Assembly (NCBI GenBank): GCA_029558835.1
Contig: JAKQDH010000069.1
Location: 1-64,000, forward strand
Origin: Planctomycetota bacterium
GTDB taxonomy: Bacteria > Planctomycetota > Phycisphaerae > UBA1845
Length of the DNA stretch: 64,000 nt
Reading direction: 5' to 3'
The notes under the pieces were generated by a model. It was not told the DNA's origin and ran no database searches. It was given only the letters and a program-made list of their open reading frames with translations. The translations under genes and the position numbers were made by a program. This document shows, piece after piece, positions 17,395-64,000 of the stretch (position 1 is the stretch's first letter; every line of letters starts with the position of its first letter).

Positions 17395-17465
17395 TGTGAC
17401 GAGCCCACCGTCTAAACAGTGTCCTTGAGCAGCTCCCCTCAATACGGAAGCCGACCACCGGGGCA

Positions 17466-17498
17466 GGGTGGCATGGCCAAGCGCAGCGCCGCCATGCC
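17466..17498 (+). repeat. Partial copy of dispersed repeat family 2 (left end)
   Basis: This 33-bp segment begins GGGTGGCATGGCCAAGCGC and continues with AGCGCCGCCATGCC. It matches the left end of fuller copies at 19091-19237, 28300-28442 and 61228-61371. Only the left arm remains, immediately before a complete family 1 element. Confidence 0.6.
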
Positions 17499-19090: not shown

Positions 19091-19237
19091 TAGGGCCAAG
19101 TGCAGCGCCGCCATGTGTTCCCTTCCACACGGCTGCTGCCCAGGCATGCCGGCTTGCCTGCCGGCCGGCAGGCGCGTTCGGGTTGGGCATGCCAGTGTGC
19201 CTGTTTCCCCGTTGTATGGTTCTGTTTCGCGGCTCGT
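19091..19237 (+). repeat. Dispersed repeat family 2 (copy)
   Basis: This copy lies in the 18989-19335 gap between the sugar transferase and export genes. It has the block GGCCAAGTGCAGCGCCGCCATG at its left end and GGGTTGGGCATGCCA, then GTTTCCCCGTTGTATGGTTC, at its right. It aligns block by block with 61228-61371. The terminal blocks are mutually inverted (CATG-GCCAAG versus CTTGGG-CATG). No gene is seen elsewhere in this gap. Confidence 0.65.
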
Positions 19238-28299: not shown

Positions 28300-28442
28300 A
28301 AACCCAAAAGCGTGGGGGACCGGAAGGGTGGCATGCCCAAGCCGAGGGCGCCGGCATGCTGGTGCAGAGGGGAGCTGCAGGCACGGTAGAAGGCACGGCA
28401 GCGCGGCGCTTGGCCATGCCACCCCACCCCGTTTGGTCGGTG
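28300..28442 (-). repeat. Dispersed repeat family 2 (inverted orientation copy)
   Basis: Read on the minus strand, this copy starts GGGGTGGCATGGCCAAGCGC and ends GGCTTGGGCATGCCACCC. It aligns with 61228-61371 across most of its length. The two ends are inverted repeats of each other. It lies between the antiterminator gene and the subtilase gene. Confidence 0.7.
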
Positions 28443-56076: not shown

Positions 56077-59000
56077 CTACGGACATCCGGTACAGTCGCG
56101 GCTGCAGTTGTCAGGCGTGTTCTGCGAAACGGTCAGACCCTGGAGCACGGGCGCCCCGTGGCAGGCGATGCCGGCGCCGGTGCCGCTCGCGGCCGTTACC
56201 GTGTTGCCGGTCACCCGGCAGTCGGTGATCGAGCAACCTACTCCGGTCCACACGCCGCCGCCTTCGCTGGCGGCCGTGTTGTTGCTGATGATGCAATCAG
56301 CGGCGGAGCTTTCGAAGAGCTGCAACCCGCCGGCGTAGCGGCTCGCCTGATTGGACACCAGGCTCGACGCGAGGATCGCCCCGTCGGACACGGAGACACC
56401 GCCGCCGGTTTGGGCCGAGTTGTTGCGGACCTGACACTGGCTGACGAGTCCGCCACGAGCGGCCGAGATGCCGCCGCCCTTGTCCGCGGCCGCGTTACCC
56501 TCGAACGTCGAGGACAGGATGTGGACTTCGAGGTCGCTGAAGATGCCCGCCCCGTTGGCGGCGACGTTGTCGGCGGCGTAGACCCCGAAGATGACCGGGG
56601 GGGTGGCCGTGTCCGAGTGGCTGCCCTGAGCGTGCAGCCCCCCGCCGTTGCCACTGATCGCCTCGTTGCCCGTCACCTGACAGTTGGAGACCACGCTCTG
56701 CTCCAGGTAGATGCCGCCACCTTCGCTGGTGGACGCTCGCCCGTCGGTGCCGGCCTGGTTGCTGCGGAGCTGGCAGCCGCTGATTTGACTGTAGCTGGCG
56801 CGGATGCCGCCGCCGCGCTGGCCGGCCGTGTTTGAGACAACTTCGGTTTCCGCCACCTCGGTGCCGTCACAGTAAATGCCGCCGCCATCAGTGCCGGCGG
56901 TATTCGCCGTCAGCACGCACCCGAAAACGCTCAGCGTGCGCCCGGCCTCCACGCGGTTGGCGTGAATGCCTCCCCCGTCCTCGCCGGCTTGGTTACCCTC
57001 CAGGGTGCAATTCTGCATGCTGACGCCGTCGATAGCCTTGATACCGCCGCCGTCACGCTCGGCCACGTTGTCGGCAAAGGCGCACCCCGTAATGGCACAG
57101 AACTGGGCGGCGTAGAGGCCGCCGCCGTGCTGCGCGCTGTTGCCCTGGAAGACACAGTCGGTCACTTCGACCTGCGACTCGAACGACCCGCCGCCGCCGG
57201 TCCATGCCTGATTACCGGTGAACGTGCAGTTGGTCAACCGGCACGGGTTGCCGGCCGCGATGCCCCCGCCGGAGGAGTCCGCCACATTGCCGGTGAACGA
57301 GCAGTTCGACAGGACGGGAACGTCCGCCGCGTTGTTCGACCGGATGCCAAGGCTGACCGCCCCGCCGGACGACGTCGCCCGGTTCGAGTCGAAGACACAG
57401 TCCTCCCAATGCACTTTCGTGCCGGTGCCGGAGGCATAGATGGCGCCTCCGTCGCGCGCGTGGCAGGCGCGGAACTTGCAGTTACTGAAGGAGACGTTGG
57501 TTACGCCGGTTACGCGCAGCGCGCCGCCCAGGTTGCCGGAGCCGCGGTATATCTGCACGTCTTCGAACGCGACGTTCACGTCGTCAAGCCACGCGAGTTG
57601 AGCGGCGTCAGCCAGGTCAATAATCGTGGCGTCAGGGCCCGCGCCACGTATCGTGATGTGGTCCCGGGCAACCGCCAGGTCGCAGAACCCGTCGCCCGAG
57701 TAGGTTCCCGCGGCGATTTCGATTACGTCATTGTAGGTGGCGGCGGCCAGCGCCTGCTGGAGGGTACCGTAATCCGCGGGCACCCGCAGCGTACGCGGTG
57801 GATTCGAGGCGAACACGGCCCGGACGGACGGGTTGCCGGACATCTCCAGACTCTGCGTCGGGTTCTCCCCGCCCAGCGAACCCTCCCAGTGATGAAACTC
57901 GAAGCCGCTTGCTGCCTGGGCGGCGACGAGCACGTTGATGCCGTATTGGTACGCATCACCTCCGGGGAACCGAATGATCTGCCCGGCCTCCGGCGGAAAC
58001 ACCTCGGTCGTAATGGTGTATATGGGTGCCCCGGATCCACTCCCCGCTCCCGACCAGGTCGCCCCCGCGCCCTCGGGTACGAAACCGGCCGTATACAGTC
58101 GAGAGGCGTTCACCGGCTCGTCACGCAGCACACCGCCGGTTTTCACCTGCGACCCGCCATCGAGCAGGTTGCGGACCGTCCAGCCGACGGCTTCGTAGCC
58201 CGGCTGCGGTTCGGCCGTGAGCGTAAGTTCGTCCGTAAACAGGTACATTCCCCACGCCAGATCGTCCGGCGACACGGAGACGGTGCCCAGACCGACGGGG
58301 TCCACGTCATACAACATGCGCGCCAGGAGTACCTGCCGGCTGGTGAACAGGTTCTTGGTATACTTGAAGCTGGGGAGGCCGTCAATGATCTTGAAATTGA
58401 TGTTAAGATCGCACACGCTGCCGCGGGCGATCTCCGCGCCGATGCGGTCATAGCGATAAGCACCGGCCAGCTCGACGTACTCCTTCCACGACAGCGACGG
58501 GCCCACAATCTGATAGAACTTGATCCCGAACTCAGGCTTCACAAACACTTGCGCGGTAATCGGCGTAATGCCCCACTCGGGCGGATGCGGAGTGAGCGTC
58601 TTGTCGAGGTCGGTAATCGTATGCCAGCCGGTTCGGTCGTACTCCGCCCCCAGAGTCGCCTCGGTAACGAAATCGAAACCGGCGGAGTTCGTGCCGAGGT
58701 CGCCGAAGGTCACCTGAGCCCCAAGCTTGATATCAACGTAACACTGGTAGACCACGGGCACGCCGCCGATGGTCATCACGCCGAACGGGTTGGGCCACGA
58801 CAGCTTCCAGATCGTTGTGTCCTTCGAGAACCTGTCGGTAATGGCCGTGGCCTCCACGGTGAGATCCAACGTAAGCTCAAAAGTGGTCGTCGCCTGGCAG
58901 AGGAAGTAGGTTAGCGTGCCCCCCTCGGTACGCAGCGCGACGTCAAAGTCCGGGCTGAAGTCGATGGACAGCTCGTCCAGCGTGATCTTCCCGTATTCCT

Positions 59001-59601
59001 CCAGTTCGAGCGAATGGTCCGTCGTGGTCAGGCGGGCTCGGCGGTCGTCAACCTTCGTGAACCGCATGCGTTTGAACAGTTCCGGCGACAGGCCGTCCGG
59101 CTGTTCAATGCGGACCTGGTCGGGATTGAACGGGATGGTCAGGTTCAGGTCGCCGTTGGGCAGCACGTCGGCCAGGCTGGCCTGTTCGGTCTGCACCGTC
59201 ACCGTGTCGCCATTGACCGCCACCGCGCGGGCCCGCAGCAGGTAGCCGCCGTCCCGGGTGGACACGAGCAGGGCCCCCGGTCTGATCTGCGCGGGCAAAC
59301 CGGCGCCCCGCAGGGTTGCCTGCCCGTCGCCATCGACCGTGATCTCCACCGTATCCGCGAGAACCTCCGTGGAGCCGACGCTGCCGCCGCCGGCGTTGTC
59401 ATTGCCGTCGCCGCTGTTGTCATTGGCGGCCGCGTTGTCGTTGGCATTGGCGTTGCCGGCGTCCGGGGAGTTGTCGTTAACGTTCGAGTTGCCTCCGCCA
59501 CCGGCGGCCCCTCCCGCGGAGCAGGACGCCAGAGCGAGGGCCAGCAGGGCGCCGAGACAGCCCAACAGCACACCGAACCGACTGGCAGTAGAGGTTAGCA
59601 T
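56077..59601 (-). CDS. Large lipoprotein: Asn/Asp linker, repeat domains, right-handed beta-helix
   Basis: The 1174-residue protein has a lipobox LLALALASC (Cys27) and then an Asn/Asp/Gly-rich linker to about residue 75. Next comes a large unassigned region with beta-like character. Two doxx-like repeats follow around 450-590 (AEPQPGYEAVGWT and ASGFEFHHWEGSL, similar to bacterial repeat modules in surface proteins). The C-terminal half (about 600-1174) is a right-handed parallel beta-helix with regular motifs such as GGAIYASGT, NSSGGGI-like turns and repeated CxFxxN steps. It is probably anchored to the outer membrane and exposed. AAGGAG lies before the ATG at 59601. Its ligand or substrate is unknown. 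Confidence 0.8.
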   Translation of the reverse strand: MLTSTASRFGVLLGCLGALLALALASCSAGGAAGGGGNSNVNDNSPDAGNANANDNAAANDNSGDGNDNAGGGSVGSTEVLADTVEITVDGDGQATLRGAGLPAQIRPGALLVSTRDGGYLLRARAVAVNGDTVTVQTEQASLADVLPNGDLNLTIPFNPDQVRIEQPDGLSPELFKRMRFTKVDDRRARLTTTDHSLELEEYGKITLDELSIDFSPDFDVALRTEGGTLTYFLCQATTTFELTLDLTVEATAITDRFSKDTTIWKLSWPNPFGVMTIGGVPVVYQCYVDIKLGAQVTFGDLGTNSAGFDFVTEATLGAEYDRTGWHTITDLDKTLTPHPPEWGITPITAQVFVKPEFGIKFYQIVGPSLSWKEYVELAGAYRYDRIGAEIARGSVCDLNINFKIIDGLPSFKYTKNLFTSRQVLLARMLYDVDPVGLGTVSVSPDDLAWGMYLFTDELTLTAEPQPGYEAVGWTVRNLLDGGSQVKTGGVLRDEPVNASRLYTAGFVPEGAGATWSGAGSGSGAPIYTITTEVFPPEAGQIIRFPGGDAYQYGINVLVAAQAASGFEFHHWEGSLGGENPTQSLEMSGNPSVRAVFASNPPRTLRVPADYGTLQQALAAATYNDVIEIAAGTYSGDGFCDLAVARDHITIRGAGPDATIIDLADAAQLAWLDDVNVAFEDVQIYRGSGNLGGALRVTGVTNVSFSNCKFRACHARDGGAIYASGTGTKVHWEDCVFDSNRATSSGGAVSLGIRSNNAADVPVLSNCSFTGNVADSSGGGIAAGNPCRLTNCTFTGNQAWTGGGGSFESQVEVTDCVFQGNSAQHGGGLYAAQFCAITGCAFADNVAERDGGGIKAIDGVSMQNCTLEGNQAGEDGGGIHANRVEAGRTLSVFGCVLTANTAGTDGGGIYCDGTEVAETEVVSNTAGQRGGGIRASYSQISGCQLRSNQAGTDGRASTSEGGGIYLEQSVVSNCQVTGNEAISGNGGGLHAQGSHSDTATPPVIFGVYAADNVAANGAGIFSDLEVHILSSTFEGNAAADKGGGISAARGGLVSQCQVRNNSAQTGGGVSVSDGAILASSLVSNQASRYAGGLQLFESSAADCIISNNTAASEGGGVWTGVGCSITDCRVTGNTVTAASGTGAGIACHGAPVLQGLTVSQNTPDNCSRDCTGCP

Positions 59602-59999: not shown

Positions 60000-61175
60000 T
60001 CAGCGGGCCGGCAGAGCGGAGAGCGTGACCGCCTCTCCGGGAAGCAGGTGCACGTCGCCCTTCAGGACCGCCACCAGGCCCCGGCCCCAGACCGGATACG
60101 TGGGGACCGAACGATAACGCAGCGGCGCCTCCTCCACCGTCGCCGCCACGCGGACCACGGTGGCGGGAAACTCACGATGTGCCCCGTTGGCGGAGGCCCG
60201 GCAGTTGACCAGCACATCCGTTCCCGGTCCCAGGGTGTGGACCAGGTGCTCAGGCAGGTACGCCACCACGCGATCCGTGCTGGTAGGAGAAACCATCACC
60301 AGCGGCTCGCCCGCCCCTACCTCGTCGCCCTCATGCGCCGGCAACGTCGTGACTTGCCCGGCAATGGGAGCACGCACCAGCCGGGCGTCGATGCGCCGGA
60401 CGGTGTCCTCGAGGTCCCGTTGCCGCACCTCGATGGCCAGCCGCAAGGGCGCTAGCAGCGGGTCTTCGGCGACGACCACCGCCCGCTCGTGCGTGAAGCA
60501 GTACCAGCGCCGGTCCGCCTCCTCGAAGGCAAGGCGGGCGCGGTCCACCACGTCGGCGTTCCTCTTCAGCTTCGCCTGCAGCGCGGCCACCTCGGTTCGC
60601 GTTTCGTTAAGCTCGCGCAACGTGGCCCGGCCCTGTTCGTACAGTTCCCGCGTAATCTCAAACTCCACGGTTGCCCCGCTGAGGCGCGCCCGGTCTTCCG
60701 CGCCCACGGACAATTGCGAGAGATAGTCCAGGTGAGCGTTCGCCCGATCGACGGCCAGGCGTCGAGCGCGGTTCTCATCATCAGCCGTTGCCCGGGCGTT
60801 GTCGGCCGCCACGCGTGCCTGCTCCGCGACGAGGTCCGCGCGCAGACGTTCGATGTCCTTCTCCATCGCGGCCAACTCGATGCGTTCGGCCCGGTCGTCC
60901 AACGCCAGCAGGAGCTGCCCGCGGACCACCTCTTCGTAAAGCTCGACGTGAACGCTGCGAACGATCGCCGGCTCCGGATGGGCCAGCGTCACCGGCTGGA
61001 AGTCCGCGAAACCGACTACCATCCCGTTGTGGCCCAGCCGCGTGTGCACGTGCCAGGCGCCCGCCAGCGCCGCCAGCCAGACCACAAACGGCGCGGCGGC
61101 GAGCAGCCCGCGACGCCAGCGTCGGCGCCGTCCCGGCCGCAGAGCGTTTGGTTGCTTGTGAGCATCGACTCCCAT
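60000..61175 (-). CDS. HlyD-like membrane fusion/secretion protein
   Basis: The 391-residue protein has one N-terminal membrane helix (about 22-45), a lipoyl-like half (SVHVELYEEVVRGQLLLALD), a long coiled-coil hairpin at about 95-220 rich in Arg/Glu/Ala, and a second half-motif (LVRAPIAGQVTTLPAHEGDE), then a beta-barrel domain. This is the HlyD/EmrA layout of periplasmic adaptor proteins. The ATG at 61175 follows a GGTGGGAG sequence. The gene is separated from the DUF4956 gene by 416 bp that hold a repeat, but lies in the same direction. Confidence 0.82.
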   Translation of the reverse strand: MGVDAHKQPNALRPGRRRRWRRGLLAAAPFVVWLAALAGAWHVHTRLGHNGMVVGFADFQPVTLAHPEPAIVRSVHVELYEEVVRGQLLLALDDRAERIELAAMEKDIERLRADLVAEQARVAADNARATADDENRARRLAVDRANAHLDYLSQLSVGAEDRARLSGATVEFEITRELYEQGRATLRELNETRTEVAALQAKLKRNADVVDRARLAFEEADRRWYCFTHERAVVVAEDPLLAPLRLAIEVRQRDLEDTVRRIDARLVRAPIAGQVTTLPAHEGDEVGAGEPLVMVSPTSTDRVVAYLPEHLVHTLGPGTDVLVNCRASANGAHREFPATVVRVAATVEEAPLRYRSVPTYPVWGRGLVAVLKGDVHLLPGEAVTLSALPAR

Positions 61176-61227
61176 GTTGGCTCCCACCTCGCCCGCTCGG
61201 CTGCATAGCTCCACTTGCCGGGGAGAG

Positions 61228-61371
61228 CGACCGACGCGGTGGGGCAACATCGCCAAGCGCAGCGCCGCCATGCCTTCTCCCGTCCCCGCCCCACCATCCG
61301 CAACAGCATGCCGACGCCTTCGGCTTGGGCATGCCACCCTCCCGGTTTCCCCTGCGCGTGGTTCTATCTGG
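61228..61371 (+). repeat. Dispersed repeat family 2, most complete copy
   Basis: It starts near GGTGGGGCAACATCGCCAAG, runs through AGCGCCGCCATGCCTTC, and ends with CGGCTTGGGCATGCCACC and GTTTCCCCTGCGCGTGGTTC. Its two ends are mutually inverted. It sits between the HlyD-like and DUF4956 genes, where the surrounding 61176-61591 gap holds no gene. Confidence 0.7.
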
Positions 61372-61591
61372 CACGAGCAGGCCGCCGCAAAGCTCCTCGT
61401 TGACCATGAACGTCTTGAGACTCGCTGCCCCGGACGCCGGGGGCGTCGGCGACACCGCCCCAACGCTACCGTCTCACTGGGCCGTGAGCGGGGGAGTGGA
61501 GGGGCCCGGCCGGCTCGGACTGCCCGCGTTCTCCTGAGAACGCACCCCACGGGCAGCGAGTGACCGGGGCCCCTCCCGGTCGCACAGTCTC

Positions 61592-62302
61592 TTACGCTAC
61601 CTCCTCATACTGCTGCTCCACGAGCAGATGAACCGCTTCCACGTGAAACGTCTGCTTCAGGGCCGCCACCAGGTCGGGCCCCAGGTGCGGATCCCGCAGC
61701 CGCAACCGGTACGCGCACTGGCAGACCGGCCGACCGTCCTCGCCCGGCACCGCCGATTCATCCACTGAAACCACGGAAACGCGCCGGCAGAAGCGTCTCA
61801 GCAACGCCTCAAACCCCGCGCTGGTCAGGGCAGCCGCCTCAATCTGAAAGCGCAGCAGGTTGTCCGAAGCATGCCACGCCCCGAACTCACTCAGATGCAG
61901 GTAGATGCCAACCAGGTTGGCGATCCCCGCACCCGCCAGCGCCGTCCCGTAGAAACCGAACCCGGCCGCCATGCCGCAGATCAGGCAGAGAAAGACGTAG
62001 GCCGTGTCGCGCGCGTCACGCACCACGGTTCGAAACCGGATGATCGCGAACCCCCCGAGCAGGCCCACCGCCACCAGCGACCGTGAGGCCACCAGCGACA
62101 TGCTCAGCGCCGCCACCACCGAGATCAGCACCAGCGCCTGCGTGAAGGTCCGTGAGTACGACAGCCCCCGATGCGTCCACTTGTAACACCAGGCATTCAA
62201 CTGCCCCACCACGAACGCCACCAGCAAGGCCAGCACCAACTGCTCGGCCAGTTGGTTCTGCCCCGCCGAGACGGGCTGGAAGAGTTCCTCGAACAAGCTC
62301 AT
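61592..62302 (-). CDS. DUF4956 membrane protein
   Basis: The 236-residue protein has about four membrane helices in its first half (e.g. LAEQLVLALLVAFVVGQL and TQALVLISVVAALSMSLV), the conserved SLVAVGLLGGFAIIRFRTVV segment, and a soluble C-terminal ACT-like region (about 150-236). DUF4956 proteins are repeatedly found next to VTC-domain and CotH genes; their role is not known. The start ATG overlaps the TGA of the VTC-domain gene (ATGA), so the two are translationally coupled. Confidence 0.88.
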   Translation of the reverse strand: MSLFEELFQPVSAGQNQLAEQLVLALLVAFVVGQLNAWCYKWTHRGLSYSRTFTQALVLISVVAALSMSLVASRSLVAVGLLGGFAIIRFRTVVRDARDTAYVFLCLICGMAAGFGFYGTALAGAGIANLVGIYLHLSEFGAWHASDNLLRFQIEAAALTSAGFEALLRRFCRRVSVVSVDESAVPGEDGRPVCQCAYRLRLRDPHLGPDLVAALKQTFHVEAVHLLVEQQYEEVA

Positions 62303-63084
62303 GGCAGCGCCTGCTCCACTTCCATACCCGACTCGCACCCCCCCGCCGCACAGGAACAAATCACGTATTTGCACACACCGCGCTGCATGAGCTCCACCCG
62401 GTGCAGCATGTCCGCCACCCAGAACGGGTACGTGTCGGTGAACTTGATTTCCAGGATGACCCCGCCCGCATCAACGGGCCACCACATCTCCCTCCGCCCG
62501 TTGCCCGGTGGGGCCAGCAGCCCGTAATGCAGGTCCCGGTCCAGGGTGACCCGGACGTTGTCCGCCGAGGTTCCTTCGTAGGCTTCCCGCCGGTAGAACA
62601 CCCCCACCGCCGGTCGGGCCCCGATGCGCCCCTGCAGTTGCTGGAACTCGTTGAGGTTCGCCTCGGCGGCAGCGGCCTTCCCGTTCCCGCCCCATGGCAC
62701 GAGCTGTTCCTGCCAGAGCAGATGTTCCGCAAGGGGTGGTTCCACCCGGGCCCGCGTCTTGTGCACGACGCCGCAGACCTTGCGCTTGATCTCATAGTAC
62801 GCCGGCAGGTTGGTCGCCGACTCCCCACATTGGCGGTACGTGCGAACCCGCAGCTTATAGCGCTGCGCCTGCCGCAACAGCGTCGCTCGCAACAGTTCGC
62901 GCGAGGGGCTGTCCAGGTAGACGGACAGCACCGGATACTCGCAATCCACCCGGTGCGACGAGTGCGGATCGGGCGGCAGGTACTTCCGGCAGTAGTGGCG
63001 GATTTCCGCCGCCTGAGCCTCGCCGATGAGATACTTGATCTCATAGCGCTGCCACTTCAGTGATCGATCGCGTTCGGCAAACAT
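62299..63084 (-). CDS. VTC-domain protein (polyphosphate polymerase-like)
   Basis: The 261-residue protein has the VTC tunnel motifs in order: YEIKYLIG, YPVLSVYLDSP, KLRVRTYRQ, AYYEIKRKVCGVVHKTRARV, VTLDRDL and VILEIKFTD. In VTC4-type enzymes these Arg/Lys and acidic residues polymerise phosphate from a nucleotide; bacterial relatives may act differently. The ATG at 63084 (MFAERDRSLKW) is used, with a TTG at 63096 as an alternative. It follows the CotH gene by 36 bp and ends in a 4-bp overlap with the DUF4956 gene. Confidence 0.9.
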   Translation of the reverse strand: MFAERDRSLKWQRYEIKYLIGEAQAAEIRHYCRKYLPPDPHSSHRVDCEYPVLSVYLDSPSRELLRATLLRQAQRYKLRVRTYRQCGESATNLPAYYEIKRKVCGVVHKTRARVEPPLAEHLLWQEQLVPWGGNGKAAAAEANLNEFQQLQGRIGARPAVGVFYRREAYEGTSADNVRVTLDRDLHYGLLAPPGNGRREMWWPVDAGGVILEIKFTDTYPFWVADMLHRVELMQRGVCKYVICSCAAGGCESGMEVEQALP

Positions 63085-63120
63085 CGCCCACCCCAACGTA
63101 GAGAGCGCCTCACGACGCCC

Positions 63121-64000
63121 CTACGGCGTTGTCTGTAGAAACTCGAGCACCGCCTCGCGCCGCGCCTCAACGTGCGTGAAGAGTTCTTCGAGCCCCCGCT
63201 CGAACTCCTCCGCCCCCGACAGCAGCGTATAGCCGGCCTGCTCACCCTCCGTCCCCACCACATACGGAGCGATCAGATCGTGTTCGGCCTGGTACCGGGC
63301 CTGCGTGGCCTCGACCGCGAACGCGCCGTCGATCGCCTCCCGCACATGGGCCACGTACTTGTTCCAGTACACGGGATCGTCCGCCAGGTACCGAATCAAG
63401 GGCCACTGCTCACTGACCTCCGCCAGGCTCAAAGACAGGGCACCCCCCATCCCTCCACCACCGCCCGCGCCCCCCACGCCCATGCCCGACGCCAGCGCCA
63501 TGTTGTTGTCCCACGGAATCCAGCTCAGGCGCCCGCCGTCGTCCGGGTTGCCATAGAGGTAATAGTTCTGCGCCATGTTCCCGTACGTGTCCCAGTTCTG
63601 GATCACCGTGTTGACGGCCAGCCAGCGCAGGAAACCGTCCACGTTGAGCACCGCTTCCAGGCCCGCCCGCCAGGCCGCGGCATCGGACCGATCGGCGTTC
63701 AGCGCGGCGATGGCCGCCTGCACGTCGCTGAAATCCGCCTCGTTCTCGTTAGTCTCCTTGTCGAAGTCGTCCTCGCGGAACGTCGCCCACGTCGACGTGG
63801 GTTTGTACAGATTGCCGGAGTCGTCGCCGAACTGCGCCGTAAGCATCGGCGACGCGGGGATCTCCGTCATCGTATACAACCCGAAGTACACCGGCCCGTC
63901 GCCGTGGTCGATGTACACACGGTAGAATGCCGTGCGCGGCGCGGGCACCCCGGCCGCCCGGAAGATGTCGTGCGCCACCTTCTCGCGCAGGTACGAGGAA
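63121..64000 (-). CDS. CotH-family kinase-like protein (partial, N-terminus outside the window)
   Basis: The 293 visible residues (the frame is open to the right edge, beginning SSYLREKVAHDIF) match CotH-family proteins: AGVPAPRTAFYRVYID, GPVYFGLYTMTE, the Lys of NLYKPTSTWATF, an Asp-containing motif SWIPWDNNMAL with a Gly-rich loop after it, and the C-terminal SLAEVSEQWPLIRYLADDPV. CotH proteins resemble protein kinases and phosphorylate coat or surface proteins in some bacteria. Here the gene leads a VTC-domain/DUF4956 pair on the minus strand. The start codon lies beyond position 64000. Confidence 0.88.
   Translation of the reverse strand, partial: SSYLREKVAHDIFRAAGVPAPRTAFYRVYIDHGDGPVYFGLYTMTEIPASPMLTAQFGDDSGNLYKPTSTWATFREDDFDKETNENEADFSDVQAAIAALNADRSDAAAWRAGLEAVLNVDGFLRWLAVNTVIQNWDTYGNMAQNYYLYGNPDDGGRLSWIPWDNNMALASGMGVGGAGGGGGMGGALSLSLAEVSEQWPLIRYLADDPVYWNKYVAHVREAIDGAFAVEATQARYQAEHDLIAPYVVGTEGEQAGYTLLSGAEEFERGLEELFTHVEARREAVLEFLQTTP

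Follow-up and report, generated by a model that had tools for sequence, protein, structure and literature searches.

The window analysed here is a stretch of 64,000 nucleotides (nt), positions 1-64000 of contig C92 in a 5.7-Mb planctomycete genome of 224 contigs. Near its end lie four genes that encode a CotH kinase-like protein, a VTC-domain protein, a DUF4956 membrane protein and a HlyD-like periplasmic adaptor. We find that the HlyD-like adaptor is a dedicated, fixed part of a VTC-DUF4956 subtype. Gene order, adaptor subfamily, catalytic residues and predicted folds are the part firmly established here. With a probability of about one half, the four genes represent a VTC-DUF4956 subtype with its own envelope-spanning conduit, by which a phosphate polymer would be made and exported through both membranes.

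Results

The four genes are all on the minus strand and are transcribed in the order CotH, VTC, DUF4956 and HlyD-like adaptor, as assigned by Pfam searches with the window proteins. The features of the locus are as follows.

63121..64000, minus strand: C-terminal part of the CotH kinase-like protein, a predicted lipoprotein (full gene 63121-65031 of C92); Pfam CotH PF08757, E 6e-55 on the window part
62299..63084, minus strand: VTC-domain protein, 261 amino acids, with a predicted Vtc4-type polyphosphate polymerase domain; Pfam VTC PF09359, E 4.4e-31
62299..62302, minus strand: ATGA shared by the VTC stop and the DUF4956 start, read from the sequence
61592..62302, minus strand: DUF4956 membrane protein, 236 amino acids; Pfam DUF4956 PF16316, E 5.8e-11
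61206..61362, no strand: dispersed repeat between DUF4956 and HlyD, ~160 nt, with other copies in the same genome
60000..61175, minus strand: HlyD/EmrA-like periplasmic adaptor, 391 amino acids; Pfam HlyD_3 PF13437, E 2e-12

The CotH, VTC and DUF4956 families are contiguous at this locus. A preliminary description of the window had the DUF4956 and VTC genes overlapping by four bases and a HlyD-like adaptor following downstream in the same direction, past a repeat. Both readings hold, and the 4-nt overlap recurs in several relatives.

The association of the adaptor with the module is seen in three data sets. In 60 relatives, all HlyD homologues at 41-56% identity adjoin DUF4956, with VTC before DUF4956, although one contig (G216:C403) begins inside DUF4956 and its VTC is not readable. 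Over 199 genomes of the phylum, the HlyD profile gives a bimodal distribution, with 16 genomes at E <1e-60 and the next matches at 1e-34 or weaker. All 16 strong-match genomes carry VTC and DUF4956, and the match comes directly after DUF4956 except in G103; there the DUF4956 contig stops ~110 nt past the gene, the HlyD match lies on a different contig and adjacency is not readable.

The third set comprises 80 related loci from genome contigs, which were retrieved by means of a DUF4956 alignment built on HlyD-type loci and are therefore biased towards the HlyD subtype. HlyD follows DUF4956 in 76 of them, typically at a distance of -4 to +20 nt. Of the other four, L201 has a weak match only and the remaining three lie close to or at the end of a contig. 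Some of the 80 are contigs of the whole-genome set (e.g. L167 and G203), so the two counts are not additive. Genes of the relatives were taken from a simple gene-calling script and profile-hit open reading frames, and all neighbour counts are approximate.

On a tree of 148 DUF4956 proteins, HlyD presence changes 3 times, compared with a mean of ~43 in shuffles (minimum 35). One clade of 95 proteins holds 91 of the 92 HlyD-type ones, at a node support of 0.26 and under a midpoint root. The preliminary description had called for a check on co-occurrence and would have given up its HlyD-like partner if relatives lacked such a gene beside the module. The gene was looked for there and is present, with its adjacency kept.

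Among the same 199 genomes, VTC is found in 58, DUF4956 in 60 and CotH in 64. VTC and DUF4956 occur together in 56 of the 62 genomes with either (Fisher p ~5e-42), and VTC and CotH in 53 of the 69 with either, with VTC alone in 5 and CotH alone in 11 (Fisher p ~3e-31); kinship is ignored in both p values. Some VTC-DUF4956 modules in the same order have no HlyD. Separately, a second arrangement, DUF4956-CotH-VTC without HlyD, was seen within the same family or order in L134-L137 and L142-L146.

The VTC protein is predicted to be cytosolic, having no signal peptide and no transmembrane helix. Its VTC domain scores 108.7 bits against a Pfam cut-off of 23. The family profile matches yeast Vtc4 at E 1.7e-19 across the full domain, and Vtc2/3 weakly and partially. 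The window protein keeps the catalytic residues R13, K17, R79, R81, K100, K109, Y164, R166, E212 and K239. We take their yeast Vtc4 counterparts to be the tunnel residues R196, K200, R264, R266, K281, K294, Y359, R361, E426 and K458. Part of this numbering is confirmed by the R264A/R266A/E426N mutant of Vtc4 (PMC9911596).

These ten positions are 100% conserved in 88 HlyD-type VTC proteins and slightly less strictly in 60 others. On domain score, Vtc4 affinity and tunnel residues, the window protein has the catalytic TTM domain of a Vtc4-type polyphosphate polymerase. It appears to have an intact catalytic domain, and polyphosphate synthesis from ATP is predicted. PPK1 (PF02503) was not found in this genome, while PPK2 was not searched for. 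Among the 60 relatives, PPK1 is present in 5 and without a match in 55, and VTC is present in 24.

The AlphaFold model of DUF4956 (predicted local distance difference test, pLDDT, 88.6) has five membrane helices and a C-terminal ferredoxin-like domain. By fold comparison this domain resembles that of MgtC (2lqj). The match to Pfam MgtC is 22.6 bits, below the cut-off of 31.4, and places the protein outside that family. R89, R91, D96, R98 and D99 are invariant around the loop between helices 3 and 4. This RFR..(K/R)D.RD loop would face the cytosol, given a cytosolic ferredoxin-like domain.

The adaptor model (pLDDT 91.2) shows an N-terminal membrane helix, a lipoyl domain split by a long helical hairpin, and beta-barrel domains, which is the architecture of the periplasmic adaptor (membrane fusion protein) family. 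The first hairpin helix is modelled at 86 residues. Foldseek gives EmrA (4tko) as the best match at E 2.3e-18, followed by MacA and EmrAB-TolC. The partner of EmrA has no periplasmic domain. A long adaptor beside DUF4956, which likewise has none, would make sense for the same reason. The known adaptor subfamilies of NCBIfam were tried and none passed, with 54.7 bits against a cut-off of 94.9 for RND, 50.6 against 208.7 for type I and 39.9 against 390.8 for EmrA.

The next same-strand gene after HlyD encodes a TolC/OprM-type outer-membrane efflux protein in 34 of 59 readable loci, within 150 nt in 30 of them, and PF02321 was confirmed in seven loci. L130 and L132 are examples of relatives with the outer-membrane gene in the operon. 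This genome has eight candidate proteins of the kind elsewhere, so the adjacency would arise by chance in well under 1%. The window system probably borrows its outer-membrane factor from elsewhere in the genome.

No powered transporter is a regular neighbour. Across 107 HlyD-type loci, a crude scan covering 4 kb of the same strand gave seven proteins with an ABC signature or at least six membrane helices, none of them recurring beside HlyD. Apart from the CotH/LTD group, no other gene family occurs in more than 8 of the 80 loci.

Extending the contig to read the start of CotH, as had been suggested, completes the gene at C92:65031. The full protein has 636 amino acids and matches Pfam CotH at E 8.6e-65. 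It should be a lipoprotein, because its N-terminal signal ends in an LQLAC lipobox. In its alignment to Bacillus cereus CotH (5jd9), the two conserved Asp positions, in QNWD and IPWD, are matched; by this fold and these two residues it is a member of the CotH kinases. The B. subtilis CotH residues D228 and D251 are named in PMC7821199. Going by the B. cereus structure and the spacing, the QNWD and IPWD aspartates would be their equivalents.

Four genomes (G103, G150, G238 and G247) carry the HlyD operon without a CotH match; two of them are 98-99% complete, and in G247 the adaptor reading frame is interrupted. CotH lies within 5 kb of 22 of the 76 HlyD-type operons and is present in the fetched stretch of 43 of the 52 modules without HlyD. 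CotH as the indispensable core of the HlyD subtype was rejected on account of the four genomes. It is a frequent user or partner, and not a necessary part, of the HlyD-type system. As a separate observation, tandem arrays of at least four CotH genes stand beside VTC and DUF4956 in L103, L114 and L154, from genomes without the HlyD adaptor.

The spacing of DUF4956 and HlyD is 416 nt in the window versus -4 to +75 nt in close relatives. The repeat in this gap has further copies at 28319-28432, 17446-17498 and 19173-19223 of the window and at C92:74214-74368. Its family is ~120-160 nt long with a GGCATGCCCAAGCCGAAGGCGTCGGCATGC core and, among the compared loci, is confined to those of this genome; the core 30-mer occurs twice in the window against 0 expected. 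An insertion is the simplest reading of the repeat, given that the gap is nearly absent in close relatives. A scan that planctomycete promoters may not fit found no consensus promoter or terminator in the 416 nt.

The genes upstream of CotH encode a short helical protein that is secreted, a lipoprotein and an IspD-like protein; none of the three is a recurrent companion of the module. The small helical protein (65162-65731) was considered as a module part and discarded, as it has no relative in any compared locus. Directly downstream of HlyD on the same strand, at 56077-59601 of the window, a lipoprotein of 1174 amino acids has an Asn/Asp-rich linker, an InlB B-repeat domain and many Chlam_PMP repeats.

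The relatives found by sequence are from Planctomycetota, mostly Phycisphaerae. Planctomycetes bacterium Pla163 (L218), a member with a complete genome, has VTC-DUF4956-HlyD. By contig title, hosts of the related loci beyond this phylum include Sumerlaeota (L176), Hydrogenedentota (L202), Myxococcales (L240) and Deltaproteobacteria (L227, with a weaker HlyD match). The operons of L129, L130 and L133 contain an inserted gene for a small LTD-domain lipoprotein, either ahead of VTC or between it and DUF4956. Genes for a sensor kinase and/or a response regulator are found near the HlyD-type operons of L128, L129, L130, L132 and L133.

Discussion

In the reading that we favour, VTC would polymerise phosphate from ATP at the cytosolic face and the growing chain would enter DUF4956 in the inner membrane, by analogy with yeast although the channels are not homologous. 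The HlyD/EmrA-like adaptor and a TolC/OprM-type outer-membrane factor would then take the chain across the periplasm and the outer membrane. Export might be driven by synthesis itself, as proposed for the yeast VTC complex, and this would explain the absence of a recurring ABC, RND or MFS pump in the operon. At the surface the polymer could be a phosphate store, a polyanionic matrix or a phosphoryl donor, often with secreted CotH-family kinases.

The preliminary description had considered a surface system that makes a phosphate polymer possible. That part is now the best supported, by the Vtc4-type residues, the membrane protein, the EmrA-like adaptor and the frequent outer-membrane channel, while CotH as a core component is not sustained. 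A channel role of DUF4956 is suggested by its position, topology and conserved charge. We put forward only tentatively that polyphosphate is secreted by the power of its polymerase via a DUF4956 channel, an EmrA-like adaptor and a TolC-like channel, with no ABC, RND or MFS pump.

Several points weigh against polymer export. S457 of Vtc4 is replaced by C238 in the window protein, and the literature searched, which did not cover preprints, gave no bacterial VTC protein with demonstrated polyphosphate synthesis. DUF4956 has no homologue by sequence among solved structures, and none of its 50 best fold matches links it to the yeast VTC channel. We know of no characterised precedent in which a small membrane protein with no power source works with an adaptor to achieve transport. 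Some modules of the same order do without HlyD, as noted above. At the window locus, the repeat lies between DUF4956 and HlyD and makes their co-transcription uncertain, and the gene after HlyD is the large lipoprotein instead of an outer-membrane factor.

The trio of CotH, VTC and DUF4956 is already known, and the HlyD-like gene is the new part. The preliminary description had the three genes together in many bacteria; the trio is not unreported. The Pel loci of streptococci, clostridia and bifidobacteria have contiguous accessory genes for a CotH-like kinase, a poly-phosphate polymerase, DUF4956 and DUF4832 (PMC7112168). These Gram-positive loci unite the same three families as the window in one cluster and are tied to an extracellular polymer. 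They differ in having no HlyD or outer-membrane protein, their hosts being monoderm, and no pel genes were seen beside the window module.

The NELoc-2 locus of Clostridium perfringens carries CotH and two VTC genes with a glycosyltransferase and a polysaccharide deacetylase (PMC2879425, PMC11677781). It resembles the window in having CotH and VTC-domain genes in one locus, but its VTC unit is duplicated, the VTC-adjacent genes are annotated as tubulin/FtsZ GTPase and HlyD and outer-membrane proteins are absent. The lack of an adaptor in the published monoderm modules fits polymer export, because monoderms have no outer membrane.

In the yeast VTC complex (Vtc1/Vtc3/Vtc4), the making of polyphosphate is coupled to its translocation through a channel with a basic wall (PMC9911596). 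The window system shares its Vtc4-type catalytic residues and, like it, has a membrane partner through which the nascent chain would pass. Unlike in yeast, the catalytic and membrane parts are on separate proteins, there is no SPX domain, and an adaptor and, in many relatives, an outer-membrane part are added. DUF4956 and the yeast channel show no relation in sequence, and the window system is therefore not a yeast-type VTC complex. EmrAB-TolC and MacAB-TolC share with it the long-hairpin adaptor fold, and with many of its relatives an outer-membrane factor of the TolC/OprM family, but no MFS or ABC pump is found and DUF4956 would be the inner-membrane part. From the MgtC family, DUF4956 is set apart by its sub-threshold match and its company of VTC and HlyD, despite the similar C-terminal domain.

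The system could instead serve protein phosphorylation outside the cytosol, where ATP is scarce. VTC and DUF4956, with HlyD in diderms, would supply a phosphoryl donor, polyphosphate or a nucleotide, for CotH-type kinases that act on secreted LTD or dockerin proteins. The strong co-occurrence of VTC and CotH (53 genomes, versus 5 and 11 with one only), the predicted lipoprotein with both catalytic Asp positions aligned, the CotH genes in 43/52 modules without HlyD and the LTD proteins adjoining some operons agree with it. However, four HlyD-type genomes lack a CotH match although two are nearly complete, just 22/76 HlyD-type operons have CotH within 5 kb, and CotH is generally known to use ATP, polyphosphate being an unproven donor. 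On balance, this appears unlikely.

It is improbable that HlyD and the outer-membrane protein make up an ordinary adaptor for efflux or protein secretion, with DUF4956 as membrane partner and with VTC as a regulator or signal maker instead of the cargo source. In its favour, drug and protein exporters have adaptors of this fold, and DUF4956 is similar to the small membrane family MgtC, some members of which are regulatory. Yet VTC lies immediately alongside, often with an overlap, and retains all its catalytic residues, neither a cargo gene nor an energised pump recurs and the adaptor falls below every NCBIfam cut-off tried. We give little credit, too, to phosphate homeostasis or intracellular polyphosphate storage, with Mg2+ or another counter-ion as the target of HlyD and the outer-membrane protein. 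Where PPK1 is missing or rare, the main polymerase may be VTC, and the weak MgtC similarity would fit; but storage needs no adaptor from periplasm to outer membrane, and another polymerase such as PPK2 may exist. That HlyD is an unrelated neighbour is suggested by the 416-nt gap with its repeat. This was rejected as highly improbable, considering the short gaps in close relatives, the profile search, in which no member of the adaptor subfamily turned up apart from the module, and the DUF4956 tree.

The HlyD-type operon has apparently not been described previously; our searches found no relevant literature on DUF4956 with HlyD, on polyphosphate with the VTC domain and HlyD, or on CotH in planctomycetes. 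The PPK enzymes do not account for how polyphosphate of bacteria comes to lie outside the cytosol. The adaptor and the outer-membrane channel point to export of the VTC product, which also bears on the role of the widespread CotH-VTC-DUF4956 module. The monoderm modules beside genes for surface-made or -deacetylated polysaccharides suggest that the exported anion may contribute to a matrix. If export is indeed powered by polymer synthesis, the conduit would be energetically of a new kind.

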